Assembly (NCBI RefSeq): GCF_014518425.1
Contig: NZ_JACVCU010000001.1
Span: 806,001-870,000 of the forward strand
Length of the DNA stretch: 64,000 bases
Direction of reading: 5' to 3'
Source of the DNA: Terrabacter sp. MAHUQ-38
Lineage (GTDB): Bacteria; Actinomycetota; Actinomycetes; Actinomycetales; Dermatophilaceae
In this document: one piece after another, positions 61,845-64,000 of the stretch
How positions within the stretch are numbered: the stretch's first letter is position 1
Layout: each line of letters opens with the position of its first letter
Translations under genes and position numbers: made by a program
Notes under the pieces: generated by a model
Databases searched by the model: none
The model's input: only the letters and a program-made list of their open reading frames with translations
Told to the model about the DNA's origin: nothing

Positions 61845-63365
61845 ATGAGTACCAACGAAAACGCACCCCTCTCACCGGAGGAGCTGGCCAACGAGGGCGT
61901 CACGGCACTGCCGGACAAGGAGGTCATCTCCATCCTCGACCTGGCCGCCGACGTGGACCTCGCCATCGACGGCGCCGCCCCCATCGACCTCGCCGTGGCC
62001 CTCAACGCCAACGTGGTTGCCCCGATCGATGCCTCGGTCAGTGCCAACCTGTTGAGCGACGGCTCGAGCGCCCAAGCCATGGCGAACCAGGGTGTCCAGG
62101 TGACGCAGACCGTCGACGCGGACGCCATCGCGACCGGCCTGCAGGACAGCACCATCGACCAGAGCGACACCGTCGATGGCGGCACGACCGCGGCCGATGG
62201 CGCCACCGGCGACACCGGCGACACCGGCGACACCGGCGACACCGGCGACACCGGCATGCTTGCAGCCTCGACGCAGAGCGGTGACACCGCCGACACCGCC
62301 GACGCCCTCGACGCCGCTGCGGCGAGCGCGCCCGTCGACGGCAGCGTCGTGGTGGACGCAGCCGGCAACATCATCGGAACCCTCGACAGCGCCACCGGCA
62401 ACGTCATCGCGCCGGACGGCAGCATCCTCGGCACGCTCAACGAGGTCACCGGCGTGGTCGTCGACTCGGCCGGCAACCTCATCGGCACGGTCACCGACCT
62501 GGTGGACGGTGCGAGCGTGGTCGGCTCCAACGGCGCGGTCCTCGGCATCCTCGATGCCGTGACCGGCAACGTGCTCGACGCCTCCGGCAACGTCGTCGGC
62601 GTCCTCGACCCCCTGACCGGCGACGTCCTCAACACCCTGGGCGCCGTGGTGGGCACCGTGACCGACTTCGTGGACGGCACCACCGTCCTCGACTCGGCCG
62701 GCAACGTCGTCGGCGTCCTCGACGCCGCGACCGGCAACGTGGTCAACTCCCTCGGCACCGTGATCGGCTCGCTCAACCCGCTCACCGGCCAGGTCCTCGA
62801 CGCCGCCGGCAACCTCCTCGGCACGGTCGGCGAGATCCTCGACGACGTCACCGACACCATCGGTGGCCTCGACACCGGCGACCTGCTCAAGGGCGACCTG
62901 CTCAACGTCGACGTCAACGTCGACCTCGACGCCGACCTGGCAGCGCCCATCAACGGCGCCGTCGCAGCCAACGCCAACGTGGCGGCGCCCATCGACGCCT
63001 CCGTGTCCGCCAACATCCTCTCCGACAACTCGGAGGCGACGGCCATCGCGCAGCAGGACGCCATCATCAACCAGTCGATCACCGGGAACGCGGAGGCCAC
63101 CTCCGACCAGGTCTCGTCGATCGACCAGGCGTCCCAGGAGCCGGTGGACACGGACACCGCCTCGGCCGACGGCACGGACTTCGATGCCGTGCAGGCCACG
63201 CCGGTGCCCACCGTCGATGTCGCGTCCGCGGCCGACGCGCCGGCCGCCGACACCTCGTCGACCACCGACCAGCCCGACCAGTCGGCCGCCGACACCTCGT
63301 CGACCACCGACCAGCCGGCCTCTGACGACGGGACGGTCGCCCCGACCGACACTGCCACGCCATGA
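61845..63365 (+). CDS. Large repeat protein with leader-like N-terminus, coupled to an M50 protease
   Basis: A 506-residue acidic protein with no signal peptide and no Cys. Residues 1-33 (SPEELANEGVTALPDKEVIS then ILDL) look like a leader. Residues 35-106 and 355-428 are duplicated modules (AAPID...NANV..APIDASVSANLLSD and the same with ILSD, each ending in STIDQ/SSIDQ). Between them, residues 168-328 are about nine 18-20-residue units of the form V-D-x-x-G-N-V-V-G-T-L-D-x-x-T-G-x-V, presumably a beta-solenoid. A (DTG)5 stretch lies at 122-136 and the C-terminus is Asp/Thr/Ala-rich. AAGGAGA precedes the ATG. Its stop overlaps the protease start. Confidence 0.85.
   Translation: MSTNENAPLSPEELANEGVTALPDKEVISILDLAADVDLAIDGAAPIDLAVALNANVVAPIDASVSANLLSDGSSAQAMANQGVQVTQTVDADAIATGLQDSTIDQSDTVDGGTTAADGATGDTGDTGDTGDTGDTGMLAASTQSGDTADTADALDAAAASAPVDGSVVVDAAGNIIGTLDSATGNVIAPDGSILGTLNEVTGVVVDSAGNLIGTVTDLVDGASVVGSNGAVLGILDAVTGNVLDASGNVVGVLDPLTGDVLNTLGAVVGTVTDFVDGTTVLDSAGNVVGVLDAATGNVVNSLGTVIGSLNPLTGQVLDAAGNLLGTVGEILDDVTDTIGGLDTGDLLKGDLLNVDVNVDLDADLAAPINGAVAANANVAAPIDASVSANILSDNSEATAIAQQDAIINQSITGNAEATSDQVSSIDQASQEPVDTDTASADGTDFDAVQATPVPTVDVASAADAPAADTSSTTDQPDQSAADTSSTTDQPASDDGTVAPTDTATP
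62211..62255 (+). repeat. 9-bp tandem repeat coding (DTG)5
   Basis: GACACCGGC is repeated five times exactly from 62211, coding Asp-Thr-Gly. Being in frame, copy-number change would alter linker length, not frame. Confidence 0.85.
63241..63316 (+). repeat. 34-bp direct repeat in the C-terminal region
   Basis: A 34-base unit starting CGGCCGCCGACACCTCGTCG at 63241 is repeated exactly from 63283, a 42-base period coding a repeated AADTSSTTDQP. A recent duplication in the tail of the repeat protein. Confidence 0.8.
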
Positions 63366-64000
63366 CCACGCTGATCGTCGCCCCCACCAGGGTGGACGGT
63401 GTCGAGCTCATCGGCGAGATGGTGGGCTCCGGCTACCGGAGCCCACCGTCCCTCGTGAGGCGGGGAGACGGACAGGTCCTCCAGCTCACGCCCCTGCTCT
63501 ACCAGGTGCTGAAGGAGTCGGACGGTCGACGCAGCTGCGCGGAGATCGCGGAGCTGGTCGGCCGCAGGCTGGGCAGGAGCGTGACCGACTCGGACGTCGC
63601 GACCCTGGTCAACGCCCACCTGCGGCCGCTCGGCCTGGTCAAGGGCCCCGACGGCTCCGAGCCCGAGCTGCGGCGCGCCGACCCGTTGCTGCGCCTCAAG
63701 CCCCGCGTCGCCATCACGAACCCCAGGACCACCCGTCGGCTCACCGATCCGTTCCGCCTGCTCTTCCGGCCGGTGACCGCCGTGGCCGTCCTCGCGGGCT
63801 TCTTCGCGGTGGTCGTGTGGGTGTTCTTCGACCGGGGCCTCGGAGCCTCGGCCTATGACGCGTTCCAGCGGCCGCACCTGCTCCTGCTCGTCTTCGTCGT
63901 GTCCGTGCTCTCCGGCGGCTTCCACGAGTTCGGGCATGCCGCTGCGGCCCGGTACGGCGGTGCCGAGCCCGGCGCGATGGGGGCCGGGCTGTACCTCGTC
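63362..64000 (+). CDS. M50 (S2P-like) zinc metalloprotease with PqqD/RRE-like N-terminus (partial)
   Basis: The first 213 residues of a membrane protease that runs off the window. Residues about 25-95 (GDGQVLQLTPLLYQVLKESDGRRSCAEIAELVGRRLG, then DVATLVNAHLRPLGLV) form the winged-helix pattern of PqqD/RiPP recognition elements. Helix 1 is about 136-156 (RPVTAVAVLAGFFAVVVWVFF), and the second helix contains the zinc motif HEFGH (188-192). The ATG at 63362 overlaps the repeat-protein stop (ATGA), so the two are coupled. It resembles YydH-type peptide metalloproteases that act on ribosomal peptides. Downstream genes are out of view. Confidence 0.85.
   Translation, partial: MTTLIVAPTRVDGVELIGEMVGSGYRSPPSLVRRGDGQVLQLTPLLYQVLKESDGRRSCAEIAELVGRRLGRSVTDSDVATLVNAHLRPLGLVKGPDGSEPELRRADPLLRLKPRVAITNPRTTRRLTDPFRLLFRPVTAVAVLAGFFAVVVWVFFDRGLGASAYDAFQRPHLLLLVFVVSVLSGGFHEFGHAAAARYGGAEPGAMGAGLYLV

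Follow-up and report, generated by a model that had tools for sequence, protein, structure and literature searches.

A 506-residue repeat protein strictly paired with an RRE-M50 membrane protease in Terrabacter: a candidate system for leader-guided proteolysis of a large precursor

Analysis of the end of a 64,000-nucleotide stretch of the Terrabacter sp. MAHUQ-38 genome (the whole stretch is referred to as the window) revealed a gene for a 506-aa repeat protein (P0001) that overlaps the gene of an M50 membrane protease with an RRE-like N-terminal domain (P0002). Comparison across genomes showed that the leader-bearing partner and the protease are strictly coupled. It also revealed kinship of the protease with RiPP proteases, type-by-type co-inheritance of leader and protease, and a CxxC domain that is either fused to the protease or encoded close to it. 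The best explanation, which on the sequences we consider somewhat probable, is leader-guided proteolysis of P0001 by P0002 yielding a probably extracellular product. The window pair is one form of a widespread kit of two or three genes in which the membrane protease appears to read a short address tag on its partner, much as in the production of peptide antibiotics; here, however, the partner is a large and very acidic repeat protein, not a small peptide.

The preliminary description of this DNA had reported a 506-aa protein whose gene overlaps that of a membrane M50 protease (ATGA). Both the open reading frame, at positions 61845 to 63365 of the plus strand, and the overlapping protease start at 63362 were present. 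The features are as follows.

61833..61839, plus strand: GAAGGAG, Shine-Dalgarno-like, 5' of the P0001 ATG (sequence)
61845..63365, plus strand: P0001, 506-aa precursor-like repeat protein (open reading frame; homologue directly upstream of the protease in 29/29 related loci)
61845..61943, plus strand: leader-like N terminus of P0001, residues 1 to 33, TALPDKEV...ILDL (conservation, motif family)
61908-61922, plus strand: LPDKE within the P0001 leader
61950..62174, plus strand: end module 1, approximately residues 36 to 110, of the same kind as the core of the short type B precursors (hhalign)
62175..62324, plus strand: acidic Gly/Thr/Asp/Ala linker of P0001 (sequence)
62340..62834, plus strand: nine-unit repeat core, predicted beta repeat, DUF3659-like (Pfam, AlphaFold2 model, repeat analysis)
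62889..63134, plus strand: end module 2, approximately residues 349 to 430, homologous to module 1 (hhalign)
63135..63362, plus strand: acidic low-complexity C-terminal tail of P0001 (sequence)
63362..64000, plus strand: P0002, RRE-M50 protease, first 213 residues in the window (the assembly continues the gene to L002:5887)
63389..63646, plus strand: RRE/PqqD-like winged-helix domain, P0002 residues 10 to 95 (daptide model match and predicted structure; weak Pfam matches in relatives only)
63923..63937, plus strand: catalytic HEFGH, P0002 residues 188 to 192 (invariant in 17/17)

The architecture first described for P0001 was borne out. The repeat core comprises nine units of approximately 18 residues with a superperiod of 56 residues. 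Pfam DUF3659 (PF12396) matched this core with an E value of 2.6e-5, 0.3 bit below the cut-off, and AlphaFold2 modelled it as a regular beta repeat (block pLDDT mostly 82 to 95, one block at 72), while most parts outside the repeat core were uncertain in the model. Profile-profile alignment of the two end modules with hhalign gave a probability of 99.9 over 79 columns (reversed control, 13.4), in line with the claimed duplication. P0001 has a net charge of -78, two Lys and Arg residues in total, no Cys, and two aromatic residues. Hydropathy analysis revealed no signal-peptide-like or transmembrane stretch (highest 19-residue mean, 1.43), which agrees with the reported lack of a signal peptide. 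The leader had been expected to be the most conserved part of the protein. It is conserved, with a mean identity of 94% at residues 21 to 30 among the partners, but residues 371 to 380 of the second module exceed it, at 99%.

The window end cuts the P0002 gene, which is complete in the assembly and encodes 841 aa. Within the deduced protein, an RRE-like domain at the N terminus is followed by an intact M50 site, then by a domain with two CxxC motifs (2xCxxC), and finally by a Pro/Ser/Thr tail. The M50 motifs HEFGH and RFDGY (HExxH and distal Asp) were invariant in all 17 aligned proteases. The NCBIfam daptide protease model (daptide_HExxH, NF041824) matched P0002 at residues 30 to 380 with an E value of 3.5e-28, scoring 98.8 bits against a cut-off of 300. 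The YydH/LiaK epipeptide model (NF058609) matched residues 165 to 295 with an E value of 7.1e-11 (42 bits against a cut-off of 225), and both models matched 17/17 aligned proteases, including that of the window. The proposed link to RiPP-type M50 proteases was thus supported by these models; the direct PqqD match that had been predicted was not obtained for P0002 with Pfam, nor for any of the 17 whole aligned proteases at an E value of 0.1. Pfam PqqD matched 2 of 10 RRE-region fragments of the protease clade defined below (E values of 8e-4 and 0.14, both below the cut-off), and the remaining fragments gave weak unrelated matches, e.g., DUF3043 (0.0032), or none. In the AlphaFold2 model, the P0002 N terminus contains strands at residues 31 to 33 and 39 to 41 and helices at residues 44 to 52, 59 to 70, and 76 to 87 (block pLDDT, 75 to 91), so that residues 31 to 87 are predicted to form a small winged helix of two short strands and three helices. 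The domain is called RRE-like because of the daptide model match, the weak Pfam matches in relatives, and the predicted structure. Foldseek searches of the PDB with the P0001 and P0002 models returned nothing at an E value of 0.001 or less, and a PDB sequence search gave no meaningful match. The only PqqD family match in the genome lies on contig 12 at 47139 to 47309 (L001, L003; E value, 8e-4), in a region that is glycosyltransferase-rich by eye, and is unrelated to the pair.

Scanning of GTDB genomes with P0002 alone revealed 29 related loci. A partner gene was located directly upstream on the same strand in every one of them, in accordance with the expected co-occurrence of the two families. 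The partners were 209 to 281 aa long in 24 loci, 470 to 499 aa in four, and 85 aa in Rubrobacter. A wider search with the daptide protease family covered 98 relatives and 394 genomes of the class; 100 of the places found were read and, together with 30 earlier loci, constituted a set of 130. A profile of the RRE-M50 region divided this set into a clade of 93 loci scoring 454 to 651 bits and 37 other loci scoring 99 or less. The profile had been seeded with 82 of the 93 clade loci, and the set contains at least three duplicate loci (L112, L061, L102).

An ORF with the leader motif E..LPx[K/R] was present within 2 kb upstream of the protease in 92/93 clade loci; the sole exception, L134, begins at a contig end. 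The same pattern was found antisense in 10/93 loci, downstream in 3/85, and in 11/37 non-clade loci, where the motifs are dissimilar. The leader rule had been shaped on the same loci in which it was first counted and was therefore applied unchanged to 32 further places across the phylum. With clade membership set at 250 bits or more, 22 of these places belonged to the clade (20 at 406 bits or more, L177 at 349, and L179 at 333), and the other ten scored 66 or less. The unchanged rule recognized a leader ORF in 16/22 clade places and 0/10 non-clade places, a weaker result than in the first set. L166, counted among the 22, repeats the known Rubrobacter locus, which leaves 15/21 for new loci. A leader motif was present by eye in L161 and L177, and L174 has four precursors on the opposite strand. 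In L160, L164, and L172 (three of the 22), no leader ORF was found, a relaxed search included. A conserved N-terminal leader beside an RRE-like protein, the arrangement by which RiPP precursors are recognized, was thus present in 92/93 and then in 16/22 loci. The family occurs in at least 50 of the 394 sampled genomes of the class, and in the window genus, two (G003, G004) of eight other genomes carry a clade locus. Of three matching plasmid records, the two that were read, both Streptomyces plasmids, carry loci with leader ORFs, and in each of them the only annotation given to either gene is "hypothetical protein."

Comparison of the leaders and precursors divided the clade into six types; the Rubrobacter locus (one locus) and L134 stand outside the lettered types.

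Type A (window type): 50 loci; leader LP.KEV; one partner of 209 to 506 aa
Type B: 7 loci; leader LPDRE.MSL; three precursors in 6/7, 66 to 82 aa
Type C: 8 loci; leader LP.RETL-like; two precursors of 62 to 72 aa
Type D: 7 loci; leader LPGREALG-like, also found on a Streptomyces plasmid; precursors of 70 to 88 aa
Type E: 16 loci (L106, L111, L114, L116-L118, L121, L122, L127, L128, L130, L132, L133, L137, L138, L141); precursors of 60 to 179 aa
Type F: 3 loci (L124, L139, L142); precursors of 87 to 112 aa

With duplicates left out, each of the six leader types corresponded to one branch of the protease tree. The supports were 0.92 for type A (47/47), 0.995 for type B (7 loci plus L134), 0.98 for type C (8/8), and 1.0 each for types D (7/7), E (16/16), and F (3/3). 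The locus without a visible precursor, L134, nests inside type B. This concordance could arise from co-inheritance of adjoining genes alone. Partners of at least 470 aa occur in five distinct type A loci, the window included. These five, the window and four long-partner loci of Nocardioides and Marmoricola, carry the repeat insert and form one small branch with a support of 1.0. The same-genus loci L060 and L066 group apart from the window copy, which is nearest to those of Nocardioides and Marmoricola; this placement suggests that the window pair was likely acquired by horizontal transfer. Two further features of the types were observed. In type C (L059, L064, L069, L070, L071, L095, L101, L115), the protease is continuous with a ParA/MinD-like ATPase domain, which in the single member scanned matched Pfam CbiA with an E value of 6e-11. 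Types E and F combine the clade leader and protease with quite different cores (NSPGSNN... or a two-Cys ...CTPAAV..H). Outside the clade, two RRE-M50-like loci (L085:3483-4755 and L057:5877-6765, oriented) contain several tandem Ser/Cys-rich short ORFs (SASCPASS...).

The precursors of the sister types are mostly 60 to 110 aa long, with type E reaching 179 aa, and P0001 is much larger than these short relatives, as the preliminary description had held for the substrate. Comparison of the core modules by hhalign linked the two size classes. The type B core matched module 1 of the window protein at 98.5 and module 2 at 98.4, with reversed controls of 76.5 and 57.5 that are high because of composition. 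A single type B core thus has counterparts in the two end modules, so that P0001 resembles a type B-like precursor that has been fused and enlarged. The C and D cores matched each other at 95.4 (reversed, 1.3), B and C at 64.8 (5.3), and B and D at 34.7 (0.6); matches of the C and D cores to the type A modules were weak (7 to 27). Beta-type alternation gave z values of 19 and 18 for the A modules, 4.0 for B, 2.5 for C, 1.0 for D (not seen), and slightly negative values for E and F, all of them overstated because the sequences compared are related. A common beta fold across the types is not claimed, as the alternation is weak in B and C and not seen in D.

The strong conservation of the core modules, which matches that of the leader and reaches 99%, is also what a lasting interaction would produce. 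Under such an explanation, the leader motif would serve only for docking, and the partner would stay with the protease as a stable companion instead of being its substrate; the ATGA overlap, which suggests balanced production of the two proteins, would fit as well. Among the sister types, however, one protease is shared by different precursors with similar leaders and diverging cores, the usual pattern of substrates, and we regard a companion role as quite improbable.

In type A, 50/50 loci have the CxxC domain as a fused part of the protease, as detected with a profile derived from 47 of them. A separate, apparently secreted CxxC protein is encoded nearby in 6/7 type B loci (7/8 with L134), 8/8 type C loci, and 6/7 type D loci, in total 21/23. 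The profile search found none in type E (0/16), type F (0/3), or Rubrobacter (0/1), together 0/20, and none in the 37 non-clade loci. The CxxC domain is therefore inessential to the clade, as types E, F, and Rubrobacter do without it. Several stand-alone CxxC proteins start with a signal-peptide-like sequence (by eye), and the fused domain of the type A protease is therefore probably extracytoplasmic. For the type C cores, hhalign showed a likeness to the repeats of the stand-alone CxxC proteins (82; reversed, 20). Such a likeness was not supported for the window type, whose modules reached 0.8 to 3.5, and was unconvincing for the B and D cores (0.2 to 15).

The neighbouring genes were analysed for further components. 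Pfam was used to scan ten genes flanking the window pair; all of them lie on the minus strand, and they encode CHAD, trypsin-like, MoxR-type ATPase, DUF58, two VWA, CHAP, zinc dehydrogenase, pirin, and subtilase proteins, with no RiPP-like match. The genes for the MoxR-type ATPase, the DUF58 protein, and both VWA proteins, one of which also has a BatA domain, form a minus-strand group at 55257 to 59490 (Pfam). Neighbours were also clustered for 37 of the 50 type A loci, using ORFs of at least 80 aa and judging the 30 largest clusters by eye. The clustering recovered the partner in 34/37 loci, and the leader-pattern search had found it in 37/37. An HlyD protein, ABC transporter, or second RRE gene had been anticipated near the pair. 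None was found among the ten window neighbours, none was a conserved neighbour in the 37 loci, and the same applies to any other conserved exporter or modifying enzyme beside the window type. Apart from sensor-kinase-like ORFs, and leaving aside frame and strand shadows of the pair, other same-strand genes were common to at most 4/37 loci. Searches with PADLOC for anti-phage defence (no match for P0001 or P0002 at an E value of 0.01) and with tblastn among phage records (no match) led to rejection of both a defence role and a phage origin.

The sensor-kinase-like ORFs bear on a regulatory explanation. They were identified by eye near 9/37 type A loci, in six cases on the strand of the pair and otherwise on the opposite one. 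M50 proteases often carry out regulated intramembrane proteolysis, and P0002 might be a site-2-type regulatory protease, with the partner as its substrate in signalling or regulation and not as a secreted product; the strictly conserved gene order would be compatible with this. On the other hand, hydropathy revealed no transmembrane-like stretch in any of 30 partners, Pfam recognized no regulatory domain in P0001, and NCBIfam gave no consistent match for 17 partners. The pair displays an RRE-type domain and a leader motif instead. A regulatory function thus appears very improbable.

Secreted antimicrobial or signalling peptides, bacteriocin-like and often two per locus, were also considered as mature products, with P0001 as a derived multi-core version. 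Types B, C, D, and E mostly have two or three short precursors per locus, the protease resembles the daptide and epipeptide proteases, and type C loci contain a conserved regulator-like gene (8/8), which we take to be SARP-like. ABC-type ATPase ORFs were found near 3/37 type A, 2/8 type C, 3/7 type D, and 5/16 type E loci, but their kind and position vary, and they are rare in the window type and absent from the ten window neighbours (0/10). Without its leader, P0001 contains 74 Asp and Glu residues and one Lys or Arg, unlike membrane-active peptides, and neither a 2xCxxC protein nor a 500-aa product would be expected in such a system. For the window pair, we consider peptide products unlikely.

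Comparison with known systems revealed partial resemblance to each. According to PMC10036551, the daptide protease MpaP is an intramembrane site-2 protease with an N-terminal RRE, and adjoining short ORFs carry the leader motif ELExMEAP. The clade likewise combines an N-terminal RRE-like domain on a site-2-type protease with adjoining conserved-leader ORFs (E..LPx[K/R]E). It differs from daptides in the partner length, up to 506 aa in the window, and in the extra CxxC domain of the window-type protease. The clade profile scored 71 to 99 bits on three daptide-family loci, versus at least 454 bits for the clade. No daptide aminotransferase, oxidative decarboxylase, methyltransferase, or DUF-RRE was found among the ten window neighbours; the sole dehydrogenase near the pair is of the zinc type and lies approximately 3 kb downstream on the opposite strand. 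No daptide tailoring set was among the 30 largest neighbour clusters of the 37 type A loci, no ABC transporter was a conserved neighbour there, and a daptide-leader pattern gave no match in L053 to L055. Since the score falls short of the daptide cut-off and the gene content differs, the window pair is not, as judged from these comparisons, a daptide system.

Epipeptide systems have a radical-SAM enzyme as partner, and none was among the ten scanned window neighbours. The epipeptide protease YydH/LiaK, EpeP, shares the M50 core with P0002, unlike the remainder of the protein, as the match is limited to residues 165 to 295; EpeP is thought to cleave and export its product (PMC10885120). In the TMcin system, as described in PMC13252029, the site-2-clan protease TmcP removes the leader at the membrane and the accessory protein TmcE escorts the product. 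TMcin differs from the window pair in that TmcP belongs to PF11667, the precursor has a transmembrane helix, and an ABC transporter is present (PMC13252029). Short precursors with LPDREM/LPEREM leaders occur in L032, L158, L161, and L155, two of them in Rubrobacter marinus, and their cores are chaplin-like by eye. The Rubrobacter precursor of L032, the sole one scanned, matched the chaplin model (PF03777) with an E value of 0.016 (15.5 bits against a cut-off of 21). Chaplins are secreted via signal peptides, and P0001 has no chaplin match in Pfam. No paper on this protease clade was recognized in searches of the open-access PMC literature.

We infer that the pair works like RRE-guided RiPP leader proteolysis, though no conserved modifying enzyme was found. 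In this leader-guided mechanism, P0001 would be made in the cytoplasm as a precursor, and its leader (LSPEEL..E..TALPDKEV.SILDL) would dock on the RRE-like domain of P0002. The M50 site would then cut the precursor near the leader and free a very acidic product, in which two homologous core modules surround a beta-repeat insert. Once freed, this product probably has its role outside the cell, because several stand-alone homologues of the CxxC domain, encoded beside sister systems, have signal-peptide-like starts; the CxxC domain may receive, escort, or nucleate it. A broader and doubtful, though not far-fetched, extension is a signal-peptide-free secretion and assembly system of Actinomycetota. 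Here, a RiPP-type leader would replace the signal peptide, one protease would recognise, cut, and pass on the product, and an outer CxxC domain would nucleate a beta-rich polymer. The products would range from approximately 40 to approximately 470 residues, the largest with a beta-repeat insert. The suggestion of nucleation is thin and comes from the likeness of the type C cores to CxxC repeats (82), not from the window modules.

If leader-guided proteolysis of P0001 is true, the reach of RRE-guided leader proteolysis would grow beyond small natural products to include proteins hundreds of residues long. The link can be tested along the series that runs from the short precursors (60 to 179 aa) to the 506-aa protein.
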